IMG/VR virus record: IMGVR_UViG_3300013131_000270
Span: 1 to 22,342 of that record
Direction: 5' to 3' (one strand)
Source of the DNA: a virus
DNA length: 22,342 nt
Shown: piece by piece, positions 3,499 through 16,434 of the stretch
Layout of the letters: every line of letters begins with the position of its first letter
Numbering within the stretch: the stretch's first letter is position 1
Position numbers and translations under genes: made by a program
The notes under the pieces: model-generated
Told to the model about the DNA's origin: nothing
The model's input: the letters and a program-made list of their open reading frames with translations, nothing else
Databases searched by the model: none

Positions 3499-4047
3499 AT
3501 GGTCAAGCCATCCAGCATCGACCGGCTGCCCCAGGAAGTCCGCGACGAGATCGGCAAGCTGCGCCGTCAGGGCCGCACCATTGACGAAATCCTGGGCAAG
3601 CTGCGCGAGCTGCTGCCCGAGGATCAACAGCCATCGCGCTCGGCGCTGGGACGTCATGTCAAGAGGGTCGAGGTTCTGGCCGAGCGGATCAAGGTCGCCG
3701 ACGCCATGGCGGATCGCCTGGTCGGAGACCTGAAGGACGATGGCGGCGACAAGATCATGCGCGCCAACGCGCGGCTCTTGGGCAGTGCCGTCTTCGACCT
3801 GCTGTCGGCCGTCGAGGACGGCGAGGCGGTGACGCTCGACCCCAAGGACGCGAAGGCGCTGTCCGAGGCGCTGCGCAACATCTCGACCGCGCAGAAGAAC
3901 CATGCCGAGTTCGCCTCCCAGATCCGCGCCGCCGCCCGCAAGGAAGCGGAAGAGGAGATGCGTCGCAAGCTGGACGAGGCTTCGGCCAAGGGCGGCTTCG
4001 ACGCCGAGGCGGCGGAGGAGGCCCGGCGCATCCTCGGGTTCGGCTGA
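3499..4047 (+). CDS. DUF3486 protein (Mu gp27-like), probable terminase small subunit
   Basis: This 182-residue protein belongs to the DUF3486/Mu gp27 family. It has an N-terminal helix-turn-helix-like region (SIDRLPQEVRDEIGKLRRQG, then TIDEILGKLRELL and SRSALGRHVKRV). A central helical domain with LDPKDAKALSEALRNISTAQ and a basic/acidic C-terminal helix (RKEAEEEMRRKLDEASAKG) follow. The gene lies directly before the large terminase, and DNA recognition for packaging is the accepted inference for this family. I chose the ATG at 3499 because homologues start near the SIDRLP motif; an ATG at 3445 would overlap the previous gene by 50 bases. Confidence 0.78.
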   Translation: MVKPSSIDRLPQEVRDEIGKLRRQGRTIDEILGKLRELLPEDQQPSRSALGRHVKRVEVLAERIKVADAMADRLVGDLKDDGGDKIMRANARLLGSAVFDLLSAVEDGEAVTLDPKDAKALSEALRNISTAQKNHAEFASQIRAAARKEAEEEMRRKLDEASAKGGFDAEAAEEARRILGFG

Positions 4048-5528
4048 TGGCCGACGAGACCGCTCCCCTCATCAACTTCCTGCCCTATCAGCGGCGCTGG
4101 CTGGAGGACAAGGCCCGCTTCAAGATCGGGATGTTCTCGCGCCAGTCGGGCAAGACCTTCACCACCTGCGCCGAGATCGTCGACGACTGCATCCAGGCCG
4201 AGATCAAGGGGCAGCGGATGCGGTGGGTGATCCTGTCGCGCGGCGAGCGCCAAGCCGCCGAGGCGATGGACGAGGCCATCAAGCCGTTCTGCAAGGCGTT
4301 CTATTCGGTCTATGAGAGCCTGCTGAGAGGCAAGCGGGCGCCCGAGTTCTCGACCGAGGAATTCGTCGTCGCCCAGGCGGACGGCCCGCCGGTGATCTAC
4401 AAGGCGCTGGAGGTGCGGTTCCCCTCGGGATCGCGCATCACGGCGTTGCCGGCCAACCCCGACACAGCGCGCGGCTATTCCGCCAACGTCTTCCTCGACG
4501 AGTTCGCCTTCCACAAGGACAGCAGGGCGATCTGGAAGGCGCTGTTCCCGGTGATCTCCAAGGCCGGCCTGCGCCTGCGCATCACGTCCACGCCCAACGG
4601 CAAGGACAACAAGTTCTACGAGTTGTGGACGGCCCGGGCGGCTTCGCCGCCGAACTCAAACAATAGCGCGCAAGGCGCGCGGGACGAGACCTGGAGCCGG
4701 CACGAGGTTTCCATCCATCAGGCGGTGGCCCAGGGCCTCGACCGCAACATCGACGAGCTGCGCTCCGCCCTCAACGACGAGGACGCCTGGGCGCAGGAAT
4801 ACGAGCTGCAGTTCCTGGAAGAGGCGTCGGCCTGGCTGTCCTACGACCTGATCATGGCCTGCGAGCACACGGACGCCGGCCGTCCCGAGTTGTACCAGGG
4901 CGGCGACGTCTACATCGGCAACGACATCGCCCGGCGCCGCGACCTATGGGTCGCCTGGGTGTGGGAGATGGTCGGCGACGTGCTGTGGACGCGCGAGATC
5001 GTCGAGGCCAAGGGGATCAGCTTCGCCGAGCAGGACGCCATCCTGGACGAGCTGGAACGCCGGTATCGGATGCGCCGGGTGGCGATGGATCAGACCGGCA
5101 TGGGCGAGAAGCCGGTCGAGGACGCGCAGCGCCGCTACGGCGCCCACCGGGTCGAGGGCGTGCTGCTGACCGGCGCCACCCCCTTGAACGTCGCCACCTT
5201 CGCCCGCCAAGCATTCGAGGACCGCCGCGTCCGCATCCCCGCCGGCAACGTCGTGTTGCGGGCCGACCTGCACAAGATCAAGAAGGTGGTCGGCGCCACC
5301 GGCGCGCCCCGCCTGGTCGCCGACCGCGACGGCGATGGCCACGCCGACCGCGCCTGGGCCTGCTTCCTCGGCATCGCCTCGGCCGACAGCGGCATCCAGC
5401 CGCCGGCCGGCGCCTCGGTCGAAGCCGACGAGGACACCTATCGCCCCGACCGTCCAGGCCCGCAGGCGGCCCTGCTTGGCCGGCCTAATTTCGGCATCAG
5501 CAAAGGAGGCCCGCGATGGGCAAGATGA
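4047..5528 (+). CDS. Terminase large subunit (Mu gp28-like)
   Basis: This 493-residue protein is the DNA-packaging motor and nuclease. The ATPase part shows Walker A SRQSGKT (residues 31-37), Walker B VFLDEF (148-153) and the coupling motif TSTPNGK (180-186). The nuclease part begins near residue 288 with VYIGNDIARRRDLW; a second acidic block is VAMDQTGMGEKPVEDA. Residues about 198-212 (AASPPNSNNSAQGAR) have an odd composition. They look inserted between YELWTAR and DETWSRHEV, which I would expect to be close together in relatives; the DNA there is one of the twin-hairpin repeats. The start overlaps the previous stop by one base (TGATG), and the 3' end overlaps the portal gene by 13 bases. 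Confidence 0.9.
   Translation: MADETAPLINFLPYQRRWLEDKARFKIGMFSRQSGKTFTTCAEIVDDCIQAEIKGQRMRWVILSRGERQAAEAMDEAIKPFCKAFYSVYESLLRGKRAPEFSTEEFVVAQADGPPVIYKALEVRFPSGSRITALPANPDTARGYSANVFLDEFAFHKDSRAIWKALFPVISKAGLRLRITSTPNGKDNKFYELWTARAASPPNSNNSAQGARDETWSRHEVSIHQAVAQGLDRNIDELRSALNDEDAWAQEYELQFLEEASAWLSYDLIMACEHTDAGRPELYQGGDVYIGNDIARRRDLWVAWVWEMVGDVLWTREIVEAKGISFAEQDAILDELERRYRMRRVAMDQTGMGEKPVEDAQRRYGAHRVEGVLLTGATPLNVATFARQAFEDRRVRIPAGNVVLRADLHKIKKVVGATGAPRLVADRDGDGHADRAWACFLGIASADSGIQPPAGASVEADEDTYRPDRPGPQAALLGRPNFGISKGGPRWAR
4637..4680 (+). repeat. Twin-hairpin palindromic element, copy A (inside terminase gene)
   Basis: The first hairpin is GGCGGC-TTC-GCCGCC (4637-4651). A 14-base A-rich linker ending ACAATA follows, then GCGCGC-AAG-GCGCGC (4666-4680). 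It encodes the odd stretch at terminase residues 198-212. Its linker and second stem resemble copy B (7348). Copies in the same architecture lie at 7348, 8849, 9507 and 16391. Confidence 0.55.
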
Positions 5529-7039
5529 GCCTGTGGCGGCGCGCGGGGGCCGCCCTGTCGGTCCTGTGGCGCGGCATGGAGCCGGCCGCCGAGCCGAAGG
5601 ACCGCCCGGGGGCGTTCCGCGAGGCGGTGGGCGTGTCCATCGACGCCGACGAGGCCGATTGGCGTCCGCTGACCGGCGACGAGCGGCGCGACCTGTCGCC
5701 CCTGTCCAAGGCGCGGATGCGCGAGATCGCCTATTACCTCTGGCGGGCCAACCCGCTGGGCAACCGCACCGTCGAGCTGCCGCTGGCCTATCTGCTGGCC
5801 GAGGGCATCAAGCTGGTGGTCGAGGACGAGGCTGCGCAGGGCTGGCTCGACGCCTTCTGGCGCGACCCCATCAACAAGATGGGGACCAACCTGCCCAAGA
5901 TGATGCGCGAGCTGGCCATGTACGGCGAGCAGTGCTGGCCCACCTTCGTCAACGAGATCTCGGGCGCGGTGCGCCTGGGCTATCTTGATCCCGGCATGAT
6001 CGCCACGGTGTTGCGCGATCCCGACAACGGCCGCCAGCCCATCGGCGTGGTGACCAGGCGGGACGCCAAGGGGCGGGTGAAGAAATACCGGGTGATCGTC
6101 AACGGCATCGACGACGAGCTGTTCTCGAAGCGCACCCGCGAGATCCGCGCCAACGACTTCCGCGATGGGGAGTGCTTCTACTTCACGGTCAACGACCTGC
6201 AGAATGGCGACGGCCATTCCGATCTGCTGCCGCTTTCGGACTGGATCGACGGCTACGACCAGTTCCTGTTCGGCGAACTGGAGCGCACGCTGTCATCGCG
6301 TGCCTTCGTGTGGGATGTGACGCTGAAGGGGGCGACACCGGAAGAGGTCAACGCCCGCGCGGGCAAAATCACCCCGCCCAAGCCGGCCAGCGTGCGAGTC
6401 CACAACGACAGCGAAATCTGGGACACCGTCTCCGCCGATCTGAAGGCGTCGGACAGCACCGAGATCGGGCGGCTGTTCCGCAACCACGTCCTGGGCGGCG
6501 GCACCATCCCCGAGCACTGGTACGGCGGCGGCAGCGACGTCAACCGCTCGACCGGCGACAGCATGTCCGAGCCCACCTTCAAGATATTCTCGATGCGCCA
6601 GCAGGTCATCAAGGCGATCCTGGAGGAGATCGGCACCTATGTGGTGCGCAGCCGCCTGCTGGCCGAAAGCGGCAAGGAACCCGATCCTGCCGACGCGGCC
6701 TACCACGTCAAGGCCGAGTTCCCCGAGATGGTGGCGCGGGACACCACCCGCTATGCCAGCGCCCTGCAGCAGGTGGTGGCCGCCGCCGTGGGAGCCTCCG
6801 ACCGGGGCCTGATCACCGAAGAGCTGGCGGTGCGGCTTATCCAGAGCGTCGCCTCGCGTCTGGGCGTGGACTTCGACGCCAAGGCCGAGCTGGAGGCGGC
6901 CCGACAGGAGGCCGAGACCAAGTCCGAGCGCGACCTGTTCGCCGATCCGCCGCCGCCCCTTGGCAAGCAGGCCCAGGCCAGCAGGGCGGGTGCCGGAGCC
7001 GCCGAGCAGCCCGAGGATAATGGCCAAGCCGGGGCCTGA
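5516..7039 (+). CDS. Phage portal protein
   Basis: This 507-residue protein follows the terminase and precedes MuF, the position of the portal, the dodecameric DNA channel of the head. It has the portal-type N-terminal segment YYLWRANPLGNRTVELPLAY and a central mixed region with ECFYFTVNDLQNGDGHSDL. It then has a helical stem/wing region ending in STGDSMSEPTFKIFSMRQQV, which resembles portal C-terminal domains. The tail after residue 460 is glutamate- and alanine-rich. The start at 5516 is supported by a strong ribosome binding site AAAGGAGG (5502-5509). I see no clear DUF935 signature, so it may be a portal family different from Mu gp29 despite the Mu-like neighbours. Confidence 0.85.
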   Translation: MGKMSLWRRAGAALSVLWRGMEPAAEPKDRPGAFREAVGVSIDADEADWRPLTGDERRDLSPLSKARMREIAYYLWRANPLGNRTVELPLAYLLAEGIKLVVEDEAAQGWLDAFWRDPINKMGTNLPKMMRELAMYGEQCWPTFVNEISGAVRLGYLDPGMIATVLRDPDNGRQPIGVVTRRDAKGRVKKYRVIVNGIDDELFSKRTREIRANDFRDGECFYFTVNDLQNGDGHSDLLPLSDWIDGYDQFLFGELERTLSSRAFVWDVTLKGATPEEVNARAGKITPPKPASVRVHNDSEIWDTVSADLKASDSTEIGRLFRNHVLGGGTIPEHWYGGGSDVNRSTGDSMSEPTFKIFSMRQQVIKAILEEIGTYVVRSRLLAESGKEPDPADAAYHVKAEFPEMVARDTTRYASALQQVVAAAVGASDRGLITEELAVRLIQSVASRLGVDFDAKAELEAARQEAETKSERDLFADPPPPLGKQAQASRAGAGAAEQPEDNGQAGA

Positions 7040-7041
7040 TC

Positions 7042-8664
7042 GTGGCCGGGCCGATGGAACCGTTCGAGCAAAACGCCCACGCGGTCTGGAACGAGGCCGT
7101 GGCGATCCAGGTGGACACGGCTGGCGAGATCGTCCGCCAGCTCAAACTCACGCTGGAGCGCATTGACGCGCTGACCGCCGCCCAGCCCACCGACTGGCAG
7201 CAATGGTATCTGCCCCAACTCCGCCGCGAGGTGGAGCAGGCCATCGTCCAGTTCGGGGAGAAGAGCGGCGACGTCATGGCGGCCGGCGCCGAGGCGAGCT
7301 GGGCCAAGGGCGTCGAGCTGGTCGACCAGCCCCTGGCCGAAGGCCCTGGCGGCTCTGCCGCCAATCTGAACAATGGCGCGGGACGCGCGGGCGGCAGTAA
7401 GCCGGGCATCCGGCTGGAGGGCATGGTGCCGCGCCTCGACCGGGGCCAGTTGCTCGCCATGCAGCACTTCATGACGTCCAAGATGAAGGACGTCTCGACC
7501 GTGGTGGCCAACCGGGTCAACCAGGAGCTGGGGCTGGTGGTGACCGGCCTCAACACGCCGGCCGAGGCCACCACCGCGATCCAGGGGCTGTTGGGCGGCG
7601 CCGTTCGCCGCCGGGCGCTGACCATCGTCCGCACCGAACTGGGCAGGGCCTTCTCGACAGCCACTCAGGGACGCATGGAGCAGGCCAGGAAGGCGGGTGT
7701 CTCGGGCCTCAAGAAGCAGTGGCGCCGGTCGGGCAAGCTCCATTCCCGGCGCACCCACGACCTGGCCGACGGCCAGATCCGCGAGGTCGACGAGCCGTTC
7801 CTGGTCGGCGGCGAGAAGATCATGTTCCCCCGCGACCCCAAGGCCAGCCCGAAGAACACCGTCAACTGCGGCTGCACCCAGCTCCCCTACATGGATCACT
7901 GGCAGGTGACCCATAAGGGCGAAAAGCCCTTCACCGACGACGAGCTGGCGGGCAGCCGGGCCAAGCGGGACATCCAGCAGATCCGCGATATGCCGGCTCT
8001 GGCCAGCGGCGGTGGCGCTGAAAAAGGAAGCGGCTGGCAGACGGCGCCGCGCCCCGTCATGGCGCCCGAGGATCTGGCGCTGCGCACCCAGGTACTGGCC
8101 GCCGCGTCGGCCGATGGATCGGCCGGCGAGCACCTGGCCGCCCGCAATCTGGTGGACGGGCGGGAGTGGCCGCCGGTCACCTCGGGCATGCGCTATCGGG
8201 TGACCCTGCCGGCGGACCTGAAGTTGGTGGTGGAAAAGGCGGACGCCCAGGTCCACATCCATCACGACCATCCCGACAGCACATCCTTCAGTTCCGCCGA
8301 CATGGGGGTGCTGCACGATTTCCCCGGCATCGCAACCAGCTATGTGCATGGGCATGACGGGACGGTCTTTTCGGCCGCCAGGACGGAGGGACGCTACACC
8401 AAGGCGCTCGATACGGAAGTCGCCGAGGCGGTGAAGCAGTCTCTGGCCAGCGCGGTGAAGGCCGGAAGGCTGTGGTCGCGGGAGGCGTCGGAGTTCCGCC
8501 GCCATGCCATCAACGAGGCGATGGCCCGAGCGGGCGTGTTGGACTACAATGTGCAGTGGAGCCCCGACGTGGAAGTGCGGTGGAACTCCGCCAGGATCGT
8601 GATCGAAGGTGCCATCGATGCCGGAAAACAAGCAGCACAAGAATGGATCGGCGGTGGACGATGA
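7042..8664 (+). CDS. MuF-like head morphogenesis protein with C-terminal JAMM/HNHP-type domain
   Basis: The N-terminal two thirds (to about residue 285) are a SPP1 gp7/MuF minor head protein. Visible blocks are RALTIVRTELGRAFSTATQG, the RRTHDLADGQ motif and the closing NTVNCGCTQLPY. After a flexible region (about 315-345) comes a separate domain. It holds H408-x-H410-P with S417 and D420 (context HHDHPDSTSFSSAD), matching the JAMM-like zinc motif HxHP-x5-S-x2-D. A possible catalytic Glu363 (GEHLAARN) lies 45 residues upstream. Such C-terminal fusions are known in MuF polymorphic toxins of temperate phages; toxin activity here is inference. The start is GTG 7042 or ATG 7054; neither has a strong ribosome binding site. 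A twin-hairpin element sits at 7348. Confidence 0.82.
   Translation: MAGPMEPFEQNAHAVWNEAVAIQVDTAGEIVRQLKLTLERIDALTAAQPTDWQQWYLPQLRREVEQAIVQFGEKSGDVMAAGAEASWAKGVELVDQPLAEGPGGSAANLNNGAGRAGGSKPGIRLEGMVPRLDRGQLLAMQHFMTSKMKDVSTVVANRVNQELGLVVTGLNTPAEATTAIQGLLGGAVRRRALTIVRTELGRAFSTATQGRMEQARKAGVSGLKKQWRRSGKLHSRRTHDLADGQIREVDEPFLVGGEKIMFPRDPKASPKNTVNCGCTQLPYMDHWQVTHKGEKPFTDDELAGSRAKRDIQQIRDMPALASGGGAEKGSGWQTAPRPVMAPEDLALRTQVLAAASADGSAGEHLAARNLVDGREWPPVTSGMRYRVTLPADLKLVVEKADAQVHIHHDHPDSTSFSSADMGVLHDFPGIATSYVHGHDGTVFSAARTEGRYTKALDTEVAEAVKQSLASAVKAGRLWSREASEFRRHAINEAMARAGVLDYNVQWSPDVEVRWNSARIVIEGAIDAGKQAAQEWIGGGR
7348..7389 (+). repeat. Twin-hairpin palindromic element, copy B (inside MuF gene)
   Basis: GGCGGC-TCT-GCCGCC (7348-7362) is followed by the 12-base linker AATCTGAACAAT and by GGCGCG-GGA-CGCGCG (7375-7389), which pairs at five of six positions. 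It is 42 bp, an exact 14 codons, and encodes GGSAANLNNGAGRA. Its peptide and layout closely match copy D at 9507 (GGSAANPFDGEEFA). Confidence 0.6.
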
Positions 8665-8908
8665 GCCGGTGGCGTTCGTCGAGACGCCAGGGCCGTTCGA
8701 CCCCATCGACGAGCTGCGCGCCTTCCTGGCCGACCTGCCCGGCATGGGCCTGTCGCCCCGTCAGGAGGCGGAGGCCCGCGAGGAGGTCGAAGACGCTCTC
8801 GCCTTCCGGCTGGCCAACCCACTGCCCGGCGATCCGGCCGTCGCCGCCGTCGGCGCAGCCGACAGACCAAATGATGGCGGCTTCGCCGCCGACCACGCAG
8901 CCGAATAG
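8618..8908 (+). CDS. Small acidic protein downstream of MuF, unknown function (possible immunity partner)
   Basis: This 96-residue protein is not one I recognise. It is acidic, with DDEPVAFVETPGPFDPIDEL, a helical middle (LRAFLADLPGMGLSP, then QEAEAREEVEDALAFRLANP) and a low-complexity C-terminus encoded by a twin-hairpin element. It overlaps the end of the MuF gene by 47 bases. Genes placed like this after polymorphic-toxin ends often encode an immunity protein, so I mark that as a hypothesis only. A GTG at 8609 is an alternative start. The second half keeps the frame open through two perfect hairpins. It is the last gene before the control region at 8909. Confidence 0.6.
   Translation: MPENKQHKNGSAVDDEPVAFVETPGPFDPIDELRAFLADLPGMGLSPRQEAEAREEVEDALAFRLANPLPGDPAVAAVGAADRPNDGGFAADHAAE
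8849..8890 (+). repeat. Twin-hairpin palindromic element, copy C (end of small ORF)
   Basis: GTCGGC-GCA-GCCGAC (8849-8863) is followed by the 12-base linker AGACCAAATGAT and by GGCGGC-TTC-GCCGCC (8876-8890). All twelve stem positions pair. At 42 bp it is the cleanest copy, and its first stem has a sequence seen in no other copy while still pairing perfectly. It encodes VGAADRPNDGGFAA. Confidence 0.6.
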
Positions 8909-9015
8909 CCGTCAACCCTCCCCTTTTTCCGGTCTCGCGCTACCGCGTTCAGGGAACGCCATATCCCTTCGGGGCGCCCCTATCCCCGCCGAGATAGCCT
9001 GAAAGGGCTGCTGGG

Positions 9016-9044
9016 GCCTCTTACGGCCTCTTATGCGCCTCTTA
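9016..9044 (+). repeat. Three GCCTCTTA iterons at helical spacing
   Basis: The octamer GCCTCTTA occurs at 9016-9023, 9026-9033 and 9037-9044, with starts 10 and 11 bases apart. One turn of DNA separates each copy, so the repeats face the same side of the helix. They lie about 60 bases upstream of the dyad promoter motif. A multi-site regulator binding region is the likely reading. Confidence 0.55.
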
Positions 9045-9105
9045 GAACCGGGGTCTCGACCAAGGTCTAAATCGGACGCCGGATGTCGGGGGAAGGATAC
9101 GACAG

Positions 9106-9127
9106 CGGGCATTTGTCCGAATTAAAC
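9106..9127 (+). promoter_or_regulatory. Conserved dyad promoter motif, copy 2 (capsid/tail block)
   Basis: The site reads CGGGCATTTGTCCG (9106-9119), an inverted repeat with one mismatch, and ATTAAA (9121-9126) follows after one base. It matches copy 1 at 12 or more of the aligned positions and copy 3 equally well. It ends 72 bases before the first start codon of the capsid/tail block. Confidence 0.7.
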
Positions 9128-9198
9128 AGACCATCCGCTTCGTCCAGTCTCGCGATCATCACCCAGCGCGGTGATCGACGCAACAGCGAGGACGAACG

Positions 9199-9447
9199 AT
9201 GGCCAAGGCCCCGACCAAGGGCGGCGAGGACGCCGCCGATCCCCAGAACGAGGTGAAGCAGCCGGCCGAGGCGCCCAAGCCCGAGGCCAAGCAGCCCGAC
9301 CCGCAGCATGGCGAGGCCGTCACCGACGCTGCCCAGGCCGCCGCTCTGGTGGGCATCGCGCCCGACCAGGTGTTCGCCTTTCGCCTCTTCGAGACCAAGG
9401 TCGTGGTGGTGACCATCGCCGGCCAGAAGCTGGAGGCCGCGCTGTGA
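9199..9447 (+). CDS. Small phage protein of unknown function before the protease-capsid gene
   Basis: This 82-residue protein has a disordered, proline/lysine/glutamate-rich N-terminal half (KPEAKQPDPQHGEAV). A short ordered C-terminal part follows (VGIAPDQVFAFRLFETKVVV, then VTIAGQKLEAAL). I do not recognise a family. It is the first gene after the second dyad promoter motif, has a ribosome binding site (GAGGA upstream of 9199), and overlaps the next gene's GTG start by four bases (GTGA). That makes it translationally coupled to the protease-capsid ORF. It could be a head-associated or scaffold-helper protein. Confidence 0.65.
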   Translation: MAKAPTKGGEDAADPQNEVKQPAEAPKPEAKQPDPQHGEAVTDAAQAAALVGIAPDQVFAFRLFETKVVVVTIAGQKLEAAL

Positions 9448-11807
9448 ACTGGGCGACGATCAAGGCGCTGCTGGAAGCGGCCGGCGTCAATGGCGTGCCG
9501 CTGACCGGCGGCTCCGCCGCCAATCCCTTTGATGGCGAAGAATTCGCCGAGGCCAAGGGCGACATGCTGGCGCTGGCCCGCCTGGTACGCGGCGCCCTGG
9601 AGAAGAAGTACGAGGCCGAGGGCCGCCGCGACACCTGGGCCGATCTGGAGGCGCTGTTCGCCGACCGCGTGGTGGCCCGCGAGGACGGCAAGCTGGTGGC
9701 CTATCCCTTCACCGTCGGCGACGACGACAAGGTCACCCTGGGCGCCGCCCAGCCGGTCGAGCAGACCTTCGCCATCGCGGCGCCCGCCACTCCCGCCAAC
9801 CCGCCGGCCCCTCTGCCGACCGGCGCCATCATCGAGGCGGTGGCCGCCAAGGACGGGGAGGCCGGTACCCGCTTCAAGGTGCGGATCGTGCAGGCCGGTT
9901 TGTCGGGCAACGCCAACTTCTACTCCGATATCGTGCTGCGCGAGGCCGCGCCGCTGTTCGAGGGCGTGCGCGTCTTCGTCAAGGCCGACCAGGAGCATCT
10001 GGCCCGCGCCGCCACCGGCAAGGACGTCCGCAACCTGGTCGGCAAGATCACAGACGTCACCTTCGTCGAGGGTTCCGCCCCCGACACCGGCGAGTTGCAG
10101 GGCGTGCTGCACGTCCTCGACGCCGCCGGTGACATCGCGGCGCGCATGACCGAGGCGGTCAGCCGCAACATGGCCGACGTGTTCGGCCTGTCCATGGATG
10201 CCGACGGCACCGCCCGCATGGGCAAGGTCGGGGCCAAGCCGGCCCGCATCGCCACCAAGATCCTGAAGGTCCGTTCGGTCGACATCATCGTCGAGCCCGG
10301 GGCCGGCGGGGGGATCATCAACCTTATCGAAGCCCAGGAGGATCAGCTCTTGAACCGTGAACAGATCATCGCCCTGCTGGAGGCCAAGGGCCTGCTCGCG
10401 GGCAAGAACCCGGCCCAGATGTCGGAAGCCGACCTGACGGCCATTCTCACCGAGGCCGTCGGCACCAACCCGAACGGCGGCGAAGGCACCCGTGCCCTCC
10501 AAATCCCCGACGCGGCGGCCATCGCCCGCCAGGTGGACGCCCTGGTCGATGCCCGCGTCTATCTGCGCGAGGCGGTCGGCACCTCGCGCCTGCCCAAGGC
10601 GGCGCAGGACCGCGTGATCGCCCTGGTCGAGGCCAAAGGCAGTTTCACCCGTGCCGACGTGGACGCGGCGATCAAGGCCGAGCGCGAGTATGTGGCCGCC
10701 TTCACCGAGAGCGGCCGGGTGACCGGCCTGGGCGGCACCGCCCGCATCGAGGCCGGCGAGACCCGCGCCGAGAAGATCTCGGCCATGTTCGACGCCTTCT
10801 TCGACACCTCGCATACCGACCACCGCCATGCCCGGTCGTTCCGGGCCTGCTACGTGGAAGCCACCGGCGACGTCAACGTCACCGGACAGCTTCAGGACTG
10901 CGATCCGGTGCGGCTGTCCGAGGCGCTGAACTCGGCCAGCTTCGCCGAGGTGCTGGGCAACGCCATGACGCGGCGGATGATCGCCGACTACCGCGCCAAG
11001 TCCAATTACGACGTCTGGCGGCTGCTGACCGGCGACCCGGTCCCGATCAGCGACTTCCGCACCCAGGAACGCACCCGCTTCGGCGGCTATGGCGACCTGC
11101 CGGCGGTGGGCGAGAGCGATCCCTACATGCCGCTGACCTCGCCGTCCGACGAGAAGGCGGAGTACGCGGTGTCCAAGCGGGGCGGCACCGAAGAGCTGAC
11201 GCTCGAAATGATCACCAACGACGACGTGGGCGCGGTGCGTCGCATCCCGACCAAGATGTCGCGGGCGGCCAAGCGCACGCTTGCCAAGTTCGTACTCGAT
11301 TTCCTGCGCACCAACCCGACCATCTACGACGGCAAGGCCCTGTTCCACGCCGATCACGGCAATTTGGGCGCGGCGGTGCTGGCGTCGGCACCCCTGGCTG
11401 CAGGCCGGCTGGCCATGCTCAAGCAGGCGGAGATGGACAGCAACGACCCGCTGGGCATCGGGCCGAAGTACCTGTGGGTGTCGCCCGACAACGAGGAGAC
11501 CGCTGTCGATCTGTTCCGGCGCACCACCGAGAACGACAAGAACTTCCAGCAGTCGCTGGCGCTGGAAGTGGTGCCGGTCTGGTACTGGAGCGACGTCAAC
11601 GACTGGTGCCTGTCGGCCGACGTGATGGACATCCCGGTGGTCGAACTGGGCTTCCTGAACGGGTCGGAGGAGCCGCAGCTCTTCATTCAGGACAATCCGT
11701 CGGTGGGCTCGATGTTCACCCACGACAAGGTGACCTACAAGATCCGCCACATCTACGGCGGCAACGTGCTGGACTATCGCGGCCTCTACAAGGGTGTGGT
11801 GGCGTAA
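9444..11807 (+). CDS. Prohead protease / scaffold / major capsid fusion protein
   Basis: This 787-residue ORF joins three functions that most phages encode separately. Residues about 1-110 are a helical N-terminal region containing twin-hairpin copy D. Residues about 150-290 look like a capsid-maturation serine protease, with FYSDIVLREAAPLFEGVRVF, a likely catalytic His184 (ADQEHLA) and Ser near 249 (FGLSMDADG). Residues about 300-440 are helical and scaffold-like. Residues about 450-787 are the major capsid protein (NSASFAEVLGNAMTRRMIAD, DGKALFHADHGNLG, LWVSPDNEETAVDLFRR). The GTG start at 9444 overlaps the previous stop. Such protease/capsid fusions are a known prophage arrangement. An internal AGGAGG plus in-frame TTG at 10350 could yield a separate scaffold-capsid product. 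Confidence 0.88.
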   Translation: MNWATIKALLEAAGVNGVPLTGGSAANPFDGEEFAEAKGDMLALARLVRGALEKKYEAEGRRDTWADLEALFADRVVAREDGKLVAYPFTVGDDDKVTLGAAQPVEQTFAIAAPATPANPPAPLPTGAIIEAVAAKDGEAGTRFKVRIVQAGLSGNANFYSDIVLREAAPLFEGVRVFVKADQEHLARAATGKDVRNLVGKITDVTFVEGSAPDTGELQGVLHVLDAAGDIAARMTEAVSRNMADVFGLSMDADGTARMGKVGAKPARIATKILKVRSVDIIVEPGAGGGIINLIEAQEDQLLNREQIIALLEAKGLLAGKNPAQMSEADLTAILTEAVGTNPNGGEGTRALQIPDAAAIARQVDALVDARVYLREAVGTSRLPKAAQDRVIALVEAKGSFTRADVDAAIKAEREYVAAFTESGRVTGLGGTARIEAGETRAEKISAMFDAFFDTSHTDHRHARSFRACYVEATGDVNVTGQLQDCDPVRLSEALNSASFAEVLGNAMTRRMIADYRAKSNYDVWRLLTGDPVPISDFRTQERTRFGGYGDLPAVGESDPYMPLTSPSDEKAEYAVSKRGGTEELTLEMITNDDVGAVRRIPTKMSRAAKRTLAKFVLDFLRTNPTIYDGKALFHADHGNLGAAVLASAPLAAGRLAMLKQAEMDSNDPLGIGPKYLWVSPDNEETAVDLFRRTTENDKNFQQSLALEVVPVWYWSDVNDWCLSADVMDIPVVELGFLNGSEEPQLFIQDNPSVGSMFTHDKVTYKIRHIYGGNVLDYRGLYKGVVA
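9507..9548 (+). repeat. Twin-hairpin palindromic element, copy D (N-terminus of protease-capsid gene)
   Basis: GGCGGC-TCC-GCCGCC (9507-9521), the 12-base linker AATCCCTTTGAT, and GGCGAA-GAA-TTCGCC (9534-9548) make up 42 bp. The second stem differs from the other copies yet pairs at all six positions, which looks like covariation. It encodes GGSAANPFDGEEFA. Confidence 0.6.
10336..10352 (+). promoter_or_regulatory. Internal Shine-Dalgarno and in-frame TTG start inside the protease-capsid ORF
   Basis: A perfect AGGAGG (10336-10341) lies 8 bases before TTG (10350-10352), which is in frame with the fusion ORF. Starting there would give a 485-residue scaffold-capsid protein (LNREQIIALLEAKGLL onward) without the protease. 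The phage already uses TTG with a strong ribosome binding site for its tape measure gene at 16447. Internal initiation is inferred. Confidence 0.5.
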
Positions 11808-11822
11808 GTCCGTTTCCTGATC

Positions 11823-11848
11823 CCCGGGCGGCTTCTCCGCCGCCCGGG
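11823..11848 (+). terminator. Strong GC-rich hairpin after the capsid gene
   Basis: CCCGGGCGGC (11823-11832) pairs perfectly with GCCGCCCGGG (11839-11848) around a 6-base loop, 15 bases after the capsid stop. There is no T-run. It may be a partial terminator, or a structure that protects the capsid mRNA end and lowers expression of downstream genes. Confidence 0.45.
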
Positions 11849-11877
11849 ATGCTTCCACAGCCAGTCGAGGTTCCGTC

Positions 11878-12249
11878 ATGTCCACCAACGTCCCCTCCGT
11901 CGCCACTCCCGGCGTCCAGGTCATCCCGATCCAGATCTCGGGCCAGGTCACCGCCGACACAGCCGGTGTGGCCCGGCTCAAGCTGCCCTTCGCCGCCAAG
12001 CTGCTGGGGGTCTCGGCCGCCGCGCGCGCCTCGGGCGGCACCACGCCGACGCTCACCGTCGATCTGAAGGCCGGCGCCAGCTCGCTGCTGTCGGCGCCGA
12101 TCGCCGTCACCGCCGGCCAGGTGGCCGAGGGGGCGGTCGCCACGCCGGCCATCGCTGACGAGACCGTACTGACCGTCGATCTGGTCATCACCGGCACCAA
12201 CCCGACCTGGAACGACATCACGGTGCTGCTGACCGTCGTGCGGGTCTGA
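11878..12249 (+). CDS. Small beta-rich protein after capsid, probable head decoration protein
   Basis: This 123-residue protein is rich in Thr, Val, Ala and Gly and is predicted to be mostly beta strands (VQVIPIQISGQVTADTAGVA, ARLKLPFAAKLLGVSAAARA, TVLTVDLVITGTNPTWNDIT). I do not recognise a named family. Its position right after the major capsid gene, its size and its strand-rich make-up fit a head decoration or head-fibre protein, but this is inference from context. The ribosome binding site is GAGG about 8 bases upstream. It lies after the hairpin at 11823. Confidence 0.65.
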   Translation: MSTNVPSVATPGVQVIPIQISGQVTADTAGVARLKLPFAAKLLGVSAAARASGGTTPTLTVDLKAGASSLLSAPIAVTAGQVAEGAVATPAIADETVLTVDLVITGTNPTWNDITVLLTVVRV

Positions 12250-12262
12250 CCGGACAAGGGTC

Positions 12263-12940
12263 ATGGTGCTCCAGGACTTCCAGACGCTGGTGGACCGCAT
12301 GGTCCGCGCGGACGCCTCCTCGGTCACCACCAGCGACCGGGACGAGGCGATCCGCGCGGCCGTGGCCCGCTATTCCAAGGACCGGCCCCTCCTCAAGGTC
12401 GAGGACGTCGCCGCCGTCGGCGGACGCTTCCTCGGCCTGCCGGCGGGGTGGGCCGAGGGATGCGCCCTGGTGGAACTGGAGCACCCCATCGACGCCGATC
12501 CGCCGGCCCTCCTGACGACGGCGGAAGTGGCGGTCGAGACCGTACCCTCCGGTCAGCGGTTCCGGCTGCTGTTCTCGCTGAGCCCGGGCGACCAGGTCCG
12601 CGTGCGCTACACCGCGCCCCATGTGGTGGACGCCGACACCGACACCGTGCCGGCGGCCGACCGCGAGGCGGTTGCTGCCTGGGCCGGAGCCCATCTGCTC
12701 GACCAGCTCGCCGCCGAGAAGAGCGGCGACATCGACGCTTCCATCGGCGCCGCCAATGTCAGCCGCGCCACCCCCGCCCAGGAATATGCCGCGCGGGCCA
12801 AGGAATTGCGGCGGCGCTACCTGAACGGCCTGGGCATCGACCCCAACCGTGTGCCGCCGGCCGGCGCCGTGGTCGCCCTGCCGCCCAGCACCGACAACCT
12901 GGGCCGTCCGCGCCTCCTGCATCCCAGGGGGCTCAGATGA
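12263..12940 (+). CDS. Head-tail connector / adaptor-like protein
   Basis: This 225-residue protein has an N-terminal helical part (LQDFQTLVDRMVRADASSV, then SDRDEAIRAAVARYSKDRPL). A strand-rich middle that includes LLFSLSPGDQVRVRYTAPHV follows. A C-terminal helical part (ADREAVAAWAGAHLLDQLA and RATPAQEYAARAKELRRRYL) comes last. Helical proteins with this layout between capsid and gp10-like tail genes usually close the portal as head-completion adaptors. I assign the role from pattern and position, not from a firm family match. Its TGA overlaps the next ATG (12937-12940). Confidence 0.7.
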   Translation: MVLQDFQTLVDRMVRADASSVTTSDRDEAIRAAVARYSKDRPLLKVEDVAAVGGRFLGLPAGWAEGCALVELEHPIDADPPALLTTAEVAVETVPSGQRFRLLFSLSPGDQVRVRYTAPHVVDADTDTVPAADREAVAAWAGAHLLDQLAAEKSGDIDASIGAANVSRATPAQEYAARAKELRRRYLNGLGIDPNRVPPAGAVVALPPSTDNLGRPRLLHPRGLR

Positions 12941-13449
12941 GCAAGGCGTTCTCGGCCACCGTCGACGGCGGCGACATCCGCCGTCTGGCGGAGATCATCC
13001 GCCAGGCGCCCGAGCTGGTGGAGGAGGAGCTGGCCGCCGGCATCTGGGAGGCGGAGCTGCTGCTGATGCGCGAGGCCCGCGAGCTGGCGCCGCGCACCGC
13101 CGGCACCCTGGCCGACAGCATCATCGCCCAGGCTCCAGAGCGCCAGGGCGGAACCGTGCTGGGCGTCGTCGCCTCGCCGCTGTCCTATGCCGCGCCGGTC
13201 GAGTTGGGCAGCAAGCCGCACATGCCGCCGTTGCAGCCGCTGATCGATTGGGTCGAGGCCAAGCTCGGCATCAAGGGGCCGAAGGGCGAAGAGGTGGCCC
13301 AGGCCATCCGCTGGAAGATCAAGGCCCACGGCACCAAGGGGCACTTCATGTTCAAGAGGGCGCTGGAAGGCAATCTCGACCAGATCCGTGCGATCCTCGG
13401 CAACCACGCTCGCGACGCCCTGGTCAAGCTCGGACTGGAGCCGATGTGA
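12937..13449 (+). CDS. HK97 gp10-like head-tail joining protein
   Basis: This 170-residue protein fits the HK97-gp10/tail-component family. The key signatures are LMREARELAPRTAGTLADSI and the strand-turn LSYAAPVELGSKPHMPPLQP followed by LIDWVEAK. A C-terminal helix (HFMFKRALEGNLDQIRAILG) closes it. Members bind at the neck between head and tail. Both ends overlap neighbours by 1-4 bases, so it is translated within a coupled chain of connector genes. Confidence 0.82.
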   Translation: MSKAFSATVDGGDIRRLAEIIRQAPELVEEELAAGIWEAELLLMREARELAPRTAGTLADSIIAQAPERQGGTVLGVVASPLSYAAPVELGSKPHMPPLQPLIDWVEAKLGIKGPKGEEVAQAIRWKIKAHGTKGHFMFKRALEGNLDQIRAILGNHARDALVKLGLEPM

Positions 13450-13904
13450 TGGCCACCCTCGCCCAGATCCGCGCCGCCCTCGTCGCCAAACTGGAAGCCG
13501 TGCCCGGGGTGGGGCGCGTCCACGACCACCAGCCCTTTCTCAAGACAGAGAGCAAGCTGCGTGATCTGTACGTGGTCGACGGCAAGCTCCTGGGCTGGCA
13601 CATCCGCCGGGTCGGCACCCGCGAGACCGCGCCTTTCGTGAGCCGCACCGTCGAGCGTCACCGCTGGCTGATCCAGGGCTTCATGGCCTTCGATGACACC
13701 GGCGCCTCCGAGCTGGCCTTCGACGACCTGGTCGAGGCGATCCGCGCCGCCTTCCGGGGCGACGAAAACCTGGGCGGGGTCGTCGCCGGCACCGCCGACG
13801 ACGAGGCGGCCGGCGTGCAGGTCGAGGACAGCCTGCCCGTCATGTTCTGCGGCGTGCTGTGCCATTCCGCCCGCCTGATCCTGACCACCGAGAGCTATCA
13901 CTAG
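13449..13904 (+). CDS. Tail terminator / neck protein (minor tail U-like)
   Basis: This 151-residue protein begins MATLAQIRAALVAKLEAVPG, a start common in tail terminator proteins. Strands and a short helix (SELAFDDLVEAIRAAFRGDE) follow, then a closing beta strand region (VMFCGVLCHSARLILTTESY). Location immediately before the tail tube gene supports a role in capping the tail tube and joining it to the head. No catalytic motif is expected. The ATG overlaps the previous stop by one base. The assignment rests on position plus overall pattern. Confidence 0.7.
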   Translation: MATLAQIRAALVAKLEAVPGVGRVHDHQPFLKTESKLRDLYVVDGKLLGWHIRRVGTRETAPFVSRTVERHRWLIQGFMAFDDTGASELAFDDLVEAIRAAFRGDENLGGVVAGTADDEAAGVQVEDSLPVMFCGVLCHSARLILTTESYH

Positions 13905-13913
13905 GAGCCGCCC

Positions 13914-14159
13914 ATGACGAAGATCACCGGAGGAGGCCGCTACGTGCTGACGGGCGGCAAGCTTGAACGGGTGGAAGACCCAACCCGGCCGCACGAGCAG
14001 GGCGACGCGCCCCGCGACGCGCGCGGCTTCCGCCTCGACCGTCCGACGTCAACCAGTTCGGGCGCGGCCGCCCCGCCAGCCCCGCGCCCCGCCGCCGCCG
14101 ATCCGGCGCCGGTGACCAAGACCACCACCAGGAAGAAGGGAGGCGGCGATGCCGCTTAA
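13914..14159 (+). CDS. Small basic/disordered protein before the tail tube gene, unknown function
   Basis: This 81-residue protein has a short ordered N-terminus (GGGRYVLTGGKLERVEDPTR). A proline/alanine-rich disordered part and a lysine-rich end (KTTTRKKGGGDAA) follow. I do not recognise it. The ribosome binding site is AGGAG (upstream of 13914), and its 3' end overlaps the tail tube start by 11 bases. Those last codons also carry the tail tube gene's ribosome binding site (AAGGGAGG), so translational coupling is likely. Confidence 0.65.
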   Translation: MTKITGGGRYVLTGGKLERVEDPTRPHEQGDAPRDARGFRLDRPTSTSSGAAAPPAPRPAAADPAPVTKTTTRKKGGGDAA

Positions 14160-15390
14160 GTTCCGCGACAAGACGCTGCTGGCCAAGGTCGAGACCGCCT
14201 ATGGCCAGGACGCCGCCCCGACCGGCGCCGCCAACGCCATCCAGGTCATGGACGTCACCATCACGCCCCAGGACGGCGAGACGGTCACCCACGACTATGT
14301 GCGCCCCGACCTCGGCGCCCGCCCTCAGATCCCGGTCAACACCCATGTCAGCATGGAGTTCTCGGTGTCGGTGGCCGGTTCCGGCGCCGCCGGCACGGCG
14401 CCGGCCTACGGCCCGCTGCTGCGCGGCTGCGGCATGGCCGAGGTGATCTCGGCGTCCGCCTCCACCCAGGCAAGCCCGGCCACCAACGTCGGCACGCCGA
14501 CCGGCACCTTCACCTATGTGGCCGCCGGTGCGTTTGCCGGCGTGGTGCCGCGCACGGTCCAGCTTACCTGCACCACCGGCGGCGGATCAGGGGTGGCGGC
14601 CTTCACCGTGTCGGCCCCGGCCGCTGGCCCCCACGCCGCCATCAACCAGACCGGCGTGGTGATGACCGACGCCACGCCTTTCGCCCTGGCCAACGGCGCC
14701 ACCATCACGCCGACGGTGGGGACCAATTTCCAGGTTGGTGACACCTACACCATCGCCCTGGCCCCGGCCCATGTGAGCTACCAGCCGGTGGGCGAGGACG
14801 AGGAGAGCCTGACGCTCTACTTCAACATGGCCGGCAACCGCCACAAGGTGCTGGGCGCACGCGGATCAGTGGCCCCGGAATTCCAGGCCGGCCAGTTGCC
14901 GCGCTTCCGGTTCAAGGTCACCGGCCTCTATGTCGGCCCCGACGCTTCCGCCCAGCCGACCGTCACCCTGACGCCGTTCAAGGAGCCGGTGCCGGTCAAC
15001 AACGCCAACACCCCCGACTTCACCATCCACGGCTATTCGGCGGTGCTGCGCTCGCTCACCCTTGATCTCGGTGTCCAGGCCCGCCACCGCGACTATCCCA
15101 ACTCGGCGGCGGTGGTGATCGCCGACCGCGTGGGATCGGGCTCGGTGGTCATCGAGGCGCCGGCCATCTCGGACAAGGACTTCTTCGCCGCCGCCCTGCC
15201 GCCGGTGACCCTGGCGCCGCTGGCCCTGGTGCATGGCATCAGCGCCGGGAACATCGTCGCCGTCGTCGCGCCCAAGGTGCAGGTGATCAAGCCGCGCTAC
15301 GGCGACGACCAGGGCATCGCCACGCTGGAGATGGACCTGGTGCCGACGCCCGACGCCGGCAACGACGAACTCGTCATCACGGTGATGTAG
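14149..15390 (+). CDS. Major tail tube protein
   Basis: This 413-residue protein resembles siphovirus tail tube proteins. It is almost all beta (VMDVTITPQDGETVTHDYVR, THVSMEFSVSVAGSG, VLRSLTLDLGVQARHRDYPN, GSGSVVIEAPA). It is larger than simple tubes because of an inserted Gly/Thr/Ala-rich stretch around residues 100-205 (TFTYVAAGAFAGVVPRTVQL and TCTTGGGSGVAAFTV). That insert looks like an Ig-like or other surface domain. A strong ribosome binding site precedes 14149. The following chaperone and tape measure genes fit a long non-contractile tail. Confidence 0.82.
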   Translation: MPLKFRDKTLLAKVETAYGQDAAPTGAANAIQVMDVTITPQDGETVTHDYVRPDLGARPQIPVNTHVSMEFSVSVAGSGAAGTAPAYGPLLRGCGMAEVISASASTQASPATNVGTPTGTFTYVAAGAFAGVVPRTVQLTCTTGGGSGVAAFTVSAPAAGPHAAINQTGVVMTDATPFALANGATITPTVGTNFQVGDTYTIALAPAHVSYQPVGEDEESLTLYFNMAGNRHKVLGARGSVAPEFQAGQLPRFRFKVTGLYVGPDASAQPTVTLTPFKEPVPVNNANTPDFTIHGYSAVLRSLTLDLGVQARHRDYPNSAAVVIADRVGSGSVVIEAPAISDKDFFAAALPPVTLAPLALVHGISAGNIVAVVAPKVQVIKPRYGDDQGIATLEMDLVPTPDAGNDELVITVM

Positions 15391-15400
15391 GGGGAACGCC

Positions 15401-15691
15401 ATGTCGCTGCTGACCATCTTCGGCGCTCTGCTGACCCTGACCACCTTCATGCTGCTGGTGCTGAGCATCATCGTCCGCCTTGGGCGTCGCCAGCTCTCCT
15501 CGCGCATCGAGGAGATGGAACACCGGCTGGACATGGGCGCCGCCCAGGCTCGCGAGGCCCTGGCCGCCTACAAGCTGGAGGTGGCCAAGAGTTACGCCAC
15601 CGTTGGCCTGGTCAAGGATAGCGAACGCCGTCTCACCGAACACCTGGTGCGCATCGAGGTGAAGCTCGACGCCGCGCGCCAGCCCAACTGA
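15401..15691 (+). CDS. Membrane-anchored coiled-coil protein inside the tail operon, unknown function
   Basis: This 96-residue protein has one N-terminal membrane segment (LLTIFGALLTLTTFMLLVLS) followed by a basic patch (VRLGRRQ) and a long coiled-coil-like helix (SSRIEEMEHRLDMGAAQAR, then YKLEVAKSYATVGLVKDSER). I do not recognise a tail function for it. The design is like the DUF2730-type gene at 2842 but the sequences are not close. Its place between tail tube and chaperone genes is unusual, and a host-interaction, spanin-like or exclusion role is conceivable. It starts 10 bases after the tail tube stop. Confidence 0.65.
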   Translation: MSLLTIFGALLTLTTFMLLVLSIIVRLGRRQLSSRIEEMEHRLDMGAAQAREALAAYKLEVAKSYATVGLVKDSERRLTEHLVRIEVKLDAARQPN

Positions 15692-15712
15692 CCCCACACC
15701 CGGAGACTTTCG

Positions 15713-16042
15713 ATGCTGAAGCTGAAGACCGACCATTCCTATTCCTGGCCCGTCGTCGTGCAGATCCCGGCCGACGGCGGCAAATTCACCAAGGCCACCT
15801 TCGACGCCACCTTCAAGGTCATTCCCCAGGACCGCATCGACGGCATCCTGCGCGGCGGCAACGTCGACGCCGAGCTGCTGCGCGAGGTGACCGAGGGCTG
15901 GAAGGGCATCCAGGACGAGGACGGCAACGACCTGCCCTACAGCGAGGAGGCCCGCGAGAAGCTGCTGTCGGTGCCCTACGTGCGGGCGGCCCTGGTCGAG
16001 GCGTATCTCGACAGCCTTTCGGGGGCGCGGAGAAAAAACTGA
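15713..16042 (+). CDS. Tail assembly chaperone, upstream frame (lambda gpG-like)
   Basis: This 109-residue protein is the short product of the tail chaperone pair. It has an N-terminal strand (YSWPVVVQIPADGGKFTKAT), a helix-rich end (DRIDGILRGGNVDAELLREV, YSEEAREKLLSVPYVRAALV, EAYLDSLSG) and a basic tip, RRKN. It precedes the tape measure gene, where gpG-type proteins bind and solubilise the tape measure. The last codons form an A-AAA-AAC slippery site (16033-16039) immediately before the TGA. A minus-one shift would extend it into the next ORF, making a 229-residue fusion. The start at 15713 has CGGAG upstream. Confidence 0.85.
   Translation: MLKLKTDHSYSWPVVVQIPADGGKFTKATFDATFKVIPQDRIDGILRGGNVDAELLREVTEGWKGIQDEDGNDLPYSEEAREKLLSVPYVRAALVEAYLDSLSGARRKN
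16033..16039 (+). other. Programmed -1 ribosomal frameshift site (A-AAA-AAC)
   Basis: The heptamer A-AAA-AAC is in the correct phase of the upstream frame (codons AGA-AAA-AAC-TGA). After a -1 slip, translation continues CTG-ACC-CTG-GTG into the DUF1799 ORF with no stop. A possible stem, GGCCGG (16062-16067) with CCGGCC (16076-16081), lies downstream but is further away than usual. This is the standard G/GT arrangement of lambda-like tails. Confidence 0.85.
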
Positions 16043-16047
16043 CCCTG

Positions 16048-16401
16048 GTGGCGCGCGCCTGGGCCGGGCAACGATCCGGCCGGGACGAGCGCGAGGAGGA
16101 TCTGCGGGCCTTCGGGTTGCCCGAGGAGGAGATCGAGGGATGGCTTGGCCGGACGAGCGAGGAAGAGTGTATCGGCGTCCTGCCCTGGTGCTTTCCTTCC
16201 GTCGAGGTCTTCCTCGCCCTGTCCACCCAATGGCGTCGCGCCGGTCTTGCCGGCGTCGCCGTCGGCCTCGACTACGCCGCCGTGGCCCCGACGCTGTGGA
16301 TGATGGGGCGGCGGCTGCCGCCTGCGCAGCGCGCCACCCTGTTCGAGGATCTGCAAGTCATGGAAGGGGCCGCCCTTGAGGTGATGTCCCGGCGCGGGTA
16401 A
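16048..16401 (+). CDS. Tail assembly chaperone, frameshift extension (DUF1799-like, gpT part)
   Basis: The 117-residue frame contains a DUF1799-like core: SVEVFLALSTQWRRAGLAGV, then GLDYAAVAPTLWMMGRRLPP, then LFEDLQVMEGAALEVMSRRG. Members of this family follow gpG-like genes in many prophages. It probably has no independent start. The GTG at 16048 has no ribosome binding site, while the -1 shift at 16039 leads into the frame directly as LTLV. The fusion would contact the tape measure during tail assembly. Its stop codon TAA (16399-16401) lies in the loop of twin-hairpin copy E. Confidence 0.8.
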   Translation: MARAWAGQRSGRDEREEDLRAFGLPEEEIEGWLGRTSEEECIGVLPWCFPSVEVFLALSTQWRRAGLAGVAVGLDYAAVAPTLWMMGRRLPPAQRATLFEDLQVMEGAALEVMSRRG

Positions 16402-16434
16402 CGCGCCAGACTTTAAGGGGGCGGCGGAGCCGCC
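16391..16434 (-). repeat. Twin-hairpin palindromic element, copy E (between chaperone and tape measure)
   Basis: On the plus strand: GGCGCG-GGTAA-CGCGCC (16391-16407), a 12-base linker AGACTTTAAGGG, and GGCGGC-GGA-GCCGCC (16420-16434). Read on the minus strand it has the same stem order as copies A, B and D. It covers the stop codon of the chaperone extension and ends just before the tape measure ribosome binding site (GAGGAGGG). It might also influence termination or translation at this junction. Confidence 0.55.

Follow-up and report, generated by a model that had tools for sequence, protein, structure and literature searches.

The window analysed here, that is, the whole 22.3-kb stretch of an IMG/VR virus record (68.5% GC), comes from a Mu-like phage or prophage. 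According to Pfam, its gene content includes Mu Gp27, a large terminase, a Mu gpF-like head protein, a protease-capsid fusion, DUF1799 and a tape-measure protein. The genes that concern us lie on the plus strand, namely, the large terminase gene (4047-5528; Terminase_6N and Terminase_6C); the Mu gpF-like head gene (7042-8664; Phage_Mu_F); an open reading frame of 99 amino acids with no Pfam match (8609-8908), taken from the list of reading frames and with a homologue in the related contig L003; the protease-capsid gene (9444-11807; Phage_capsid_4 and Mu-like_gpT on 9447-11807), whose GTG start codon at 9444 is our own reading of the sequence; and the DUF1799 gene (16048-16401). DNA similarity between the window and GenBank phage records is almost nil, with a single 92-bp match, and the best protein identity to GenBank phages is around 60%, for instance to a Rhodovulum phage; a prophage on an Azospirillum plasmid is similarly related. 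The closest relatives are L003 and L096, two contigs from one metagenome, the former showing about 86% nucleotide identity with the window across most of its length. A scan of genome contigs with the gpF protein returned one remote match.

A sequence-only reading of this DNA had claimed five twin hairpins of common design, and all five are present at the positions it gave. First, copy A (4637-4680, plus strand), in the large terminase gene, is identified by its fold, a gap in L003 and a covariance-model match of 48.1 bits; it is a 45-nt in-frame insertion with a linker of 14 nt, and is translated as RAASPPNSNNSAQGA. As a small correction, the terminase does not translate this copy in the GGSAAN frame but in the element's alternative open frame (AASPPNSNNSAQGA). 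Second, copy B (7348-7389, plus strand), close to the N-terminal end encoded by the Mu gpF-like head gene, and third, copy C (8849-8890, plus strand), in the C-terminal tail of the 99-residue open reading frame, are each identified by fold, alignment and model match, and are translated as GGSAANLNNGAGRA and VGAADRPNDGGFAA, respectively. Fourth, copy D (9507-9548, plus strand), close to the N-terminal end encoded by the protease-capsid gene, is identified by its fold, a gap in L003 and a model match of 44.8 bits; it is a clean 42-nt insertion translated as GGSAANPFDGEEFA. Fifth, copy E (16391-16434, minus strand), identified by fold and model match, overlaps the 3' end of the DUF1799 gene, running across its stop codon and the spacer that precedes the tape-measure gene. 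Two further small corrections concern copy B, whose second stem has 5 bp (GCGCG-GGA-CGCGC), and copy E, whose second loop has 5 nt.

The consensus of the element reads GGCGGC-TTC-GCCGCC / AGAYTCAATGAT / GGCGCG-GAA-CGCGCC. Its first sense frame yields peptides of the GGSAANPFDG or GGSAASSNDGAGRA types and its second frame those of the AASPPDSMMARNA type; a stop codon occurs in the third frame only, and genes use both open frames. Element length is 42-45 nt in 19 of the 20 tabulated copies and 40 nt in the other one, and the inserts at the three clean sites described below have 42 or 45 nt, lengths divisible by three. G directly follows the element in 18 of these 20 copies, and GG in 15; this right-edge G is already present at the known empty sites. 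No target duplication was seen at the empty sites beyond 3-4 bases, which are ambiguous because flank and element share them. Covariation between stem partners reached 0.230, as compared with 0.082 in shuffles (0/500) and no more than 0.075 after sliding the partners, in an alignment that was fitted to the structure and hence leans towards pairing. In the raw sequences, stems can be seen to change while pairing is kept, as in GTCGGC/GCCGAC and GGCGAA/TTCGCC. Such retention of pairing had been taken to suggest selection or copying of the structure, a proposal that the present analysis supports.

GC-rich stems form easily, and chance twin hairpins occur both in shuffled sequences and in unrelated loci, so that the structures could simply result from the GGC/GCC codon bias of genes with high GC content, a caution that the sequence-only reading itself had raised. 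We defined the twin hairpin as a first stem of 6 bp with a loop of 3 nt, a linker of 12-14 nt, and a second stem of 5 bp or more with a loop of 3-5 nt. Under this definition there are five distinct loci in the window, against a mean of 0.96 (maximum 3) in synonymous shuffles; with 6-bp stems there are four, against a mean of 0.33 (maximum 2). Codon-order shuffles gave a mean of 0.33 (maximum 2). The frequency is therefore not equalled in codon-preserving shuffles, the observed counts being reached in none of 120 shuffles of either kind (synonymous within genes, or codon-order), and this answers the caution. Given also the precise insertions relative to related sequences, we regard the probability of an artefact of codon bias as negligible; for copies A and D, as for the copy of contigs L136 and L139 introduced below, this explanation is refuted.

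Comparison with related contigs provided both filled and empty sites. First, the terminase copy corresponds to an in-frame gap of 45 nt in L003 when aligned with the window. At this site the window has 21 residues, as compared with 6-8 in 56 of 61 aligned terminases; a longer stretch is found in four other rows too, of which the two covered by sequence comparison, L013 and L021, are unrelated in sequence. Second, the protease-capsid copy corresponds to an exact 42-nt in-frame gap in L003, between CTGACC and GAGGCC. Third, the gpF copy lies within a net insertion of 60 nt with respect to L003 (the element plus 18 nt), and copy C lies within a C-terminal tail of variable length, with a net gain of 30 nt over L003. 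L003 in turn has its own copy at 10782-10826, missing from the window (GCCGGC-GGC-GCCGGC-AAAGGTGGACAT-GGCGGG-CCTGCG-CCCGCC), as well as a half-copy at 9193-9224 near the end of the terminase gene, consisting of linker and second hairpin (AACAGCATTGGCGCGGGACGCGCC), which the window does not have. Extra length changes adjoin copies B and C and L003's own copy. Fourth, in both L136 and L139 the Pro/Gln-rich tail of one phage protein contains an insertion of exactly 42 nt, which is absent from the 13 orthologues that complete this 15-member family, three of the 13 sharing the IMG genome number of L136. Among the relatives of the L136 gene is contig 637000155_000004 (L149), whose IMG number may be that of Magnetospirillum magneticum AMB-1.

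The copies in L136 and L139 are one inherited event. As judged from the alignments, the independent clean events with an empty site number three, namely, the terminase, the protease-capsid and the L136/L139 copies, and L003's own copy appears as a fourth event, with 9 nt of extra change. It had been anticipated that homologues running through the element without any insertion boundary would speak against the family; boundaries are clear in the terminase, in the protease-capsid gene and in the 15-member phage gene family. At the level of these alignments, then, the copies are shown to have been inserted at new sites in phage genes. In the case of copy E, a counterpart twin hairpin with different stems is found at the same place in L096, and because L096 carries this counterpart no empty site was seen. 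Copy E would thus be old, or its site would have been used repeatedly.

These comparisons also bear on the idea that the hairpins are conserved regulatory signals of RNA or DNA, such as terminators or elements of mRNA stability or processing, kept for their function. Pairing that is retained while sequence changes would fit such signals, as would the position of copy E at a gene boundary and its presence in both relatives. However, most copies interrupt coding sequence at places where close relatives have none, and no Rfam match above the gathering score was obtained in the window, so that we give this explanation a very slim chance.

The family extends to other phages. A covariance model built from seven copies (R1), together with pattern scans, led to three further settings: G002, L132, and L136 with L139. 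The refined version of the model (R2) gave matches at E<0.01 in the window, L003 and L096 only when run over 91 related loci (1.29 Mb), and in a second set of 98 loci it gave matches in G002, L132, L136 and L139, plus one weak match in L180. A covariance-model search had been advised at the outset; run over phage contigs, it recovered the element from unrelated ones. L132 holds one copy, as identified with the covariance model. G002 (IMGVR 3300029893_000401; 39.8 kb) is a different Mu-like phage with a Mu transposase and DUF3164, and has ten model matches at E<=0.001. Among these are an in-frame copy in the Mu transposase (GGSAASSNDGAGRA), one at the N-terminus of DUF3164 and others in variable regions of further genes. 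The transposase gene (34300-36579, minus strand; L234 14500-16779) has two copies near its C-terminus, one in sense at residues 687-701 and one in the opposite orientation at approximately residues 738-752, both of them open. G002 also contains a tandem array of the element at 28031-28150 (L117 3377-3496), with a period of 39 nt, or 13 codons, and a half-copy first.

Other searches were less productive. Patterns for the first hairpin and for the second half recovered real relatives among chance matches, and DNA patterns modelled closely on the window copies gave chance matches only in IMG/VR. BLAST of the element against plasmids and phages returned short or weak matches only, which we read as chance. 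No element was found in 60 genomes from the phylum of the remote gpF match, a weak negative, as scoring covered just 106 candidates in each genome. Within the window, some stretches were considered and rejected as copies: a 42-nt stretch at 9247-9288, present in the window and not in L003, is a repeat coding for a KQPAEAPKPEA-type peptide and has no twin hairpin; the 63-nt stretch at 16775-16837, within the tape-measure gene, is a tandem duplication missing from L096; and a model match at 18976-19020 on the minus strand is weak (E 0.06).

Separately, a 30-nt palindrome, GGGCGCGGGGCTGGCGGGGCGGCCGCGCCC, occurs at 14060-14089 of the window (minus strand) and at 11714-11744 of L003 (plus strand), about 97% identical in two unrelated genes and in opposite orientation. 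Elsewhere in the 2.5 Mb searched it had one weak match only. It is possibly a second mobile palindrome family.

Among known systems, the palindromic elements of Rickettsia (RPE), reportedly described by Ogata et al. in 2000, are similar in being dispersed palindromic DNA that sits in frame within conserved protein genes and is translated as part of the protein. RPE measure 105-146 bp and form one long stem-loop (PMC2229807), whereas the element described here has 40-45 nt and two separate short GC-rich hairpins, and occurs in Mu-like and other phages. The Rickettsia likeness noted from the sequence alone consequently stands for in-frame palindromic insertion in protein genes, but not for length and architecture. 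Protein-coding palindromic repeats of Wolbachia are also cited in PMC2229807. Double-hairpin and repetitive hairpin-forming elements, reported as intergenic in sponge mitochondrial genomes (PMC2800124), likewise have two hairpins as one dispersed unit, and differ in showing no sequence link with the present family.

Another possibility is that the copies belong to the GTAG or CGTC superfamilies of REP elements, with nothing unusual about them, and are mobilised by TnpA-REP. These are palindromes of 20-40 bp, often dimers and sometimes intragenic, where they encode 20-30 residues (PMC3733652), and intragenic GTAG/CGTC repeats and REP dimers or REPINs (PMC3733652, PMC3116915, PMC8266576) share with our element short palindromes, paired units with a spacer and some in-frame intragenic positions. 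However, the twin-hairpin element has no GTAG or CGTC tag at the stem foot: GTAG is present in none of 20 copies with 12-nt flanks, and CGTC in two left flanks only, off the stem foot. Its two hairpins are unlike each other and come in fixed order with a fixed linker of 12-14 nt, and neither a Y1 transposase nor a TnpA-REP gene was found in the eight phage records searched. We therefore see only a slim chance that these are ordinary REP elements.

Elements of the IS200/IS605 type have a subterminal hairpin at each end, insert by a short fixed motif and leave no clear target duplication. The twin-hairpin element may resemble them, in that it has two hairpins, usually G or GG at its right edge and, at the empty sites, no target duplication beyond the 3-4 ambiguous bases. 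It differs from these elements and their non-autonomous derivatives (PMC6006769, PMC8266576) in that a transposase gene is present neither in the element nor in the eight phage records. No description of the twin-hairpin family was found in the open-access literature searched, nor was a paper on palindromic repeat elements of Magnetospirillum found there. The best reading is that the family is new, and that it works like RPE and intragenic REP dimers while lacking the tested defining features of either.

Overall, we interpret the five structures as belonging to a single dispersed family of non-autonomous mobile DNA, with a probability of roughly 0.8. Against this reading, no Y1 transposase was found in the eight phage records, and the independent clean events dated by an empty site are only three. 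The unit consists of some 42 nt, with two GC-rich hairpins and a linker of 12-14 nt, and carries no gene. With two of its three sense frames open, it leaves the host gene readable while adding 14-15 residues; the places of insertion are tolerant ones, namely, a variable loop, a terminus or a Pro/Gln-rich tail. An enzyme supplied in trans, probably from the host, would recognise the hairpins, frame- or protein-breaking copies would then be purged by selection, and the element may act as selfish DNA that persists as short peptide inserts. Among the routes of movement we infer that an HUH-type single-strand route fits best, because the ends are hairpins instead of long terminal repeats and the insertion adjoins a short fixed motif. 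By analogy with IS200/IS605 or TnpA-REP, it is tempting to suggest such a hairpin-recognising route, albeit tentatively.

Hairpins provoke template switching, and the main rival to a mobile family is that the copies spread with no mobilising enzyme, by recombination or by template switching from one GC-rich hairpin to another during replication. The 39-nt tandem array in G002 and the half-copies in L003 and G002 also fit copying of this kind, and count against the mobile interpretation. However, it is one conserved unit, with a conserved G or GG at its right edge, that occurs at unrelated sites and genes, and the flanks share only a few bases, with no homology to guide the exchange. Template switching is for these reasons unlikely, even if it deserves more attention than the other alternatives. 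Going one step beyond a mobile DNA family as such, the element might represent a new class of minimal mobile DNA, a suggestion that we put forward with reserve: a twin hairpin of 42 nt that a putative hairpin-recognising enzyme would move in trans. A length of 14 codons and two open sense frames would make it fit for coding DNA, and it would travel among phages, Mu-like and other, and their hosts in the form of in-frame peptide inserts.

In-frame palindromic inserts have so far come mainly from Rickettsia, Wolbachia and some REP-rich bacteria. The 42-nt family occupies genes central to a phage, such as those for Mu transposase, terminase and capsid precursor. Close relatives provide both filled and empty sites, and a single 40-kb contig has about ten copies. 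A conserved protein can in this way gain a new peptide loop in one step. If the element is still mobile, its movement and the cost of the peptide inserts could both be tested directly in a cultured phage that has it.
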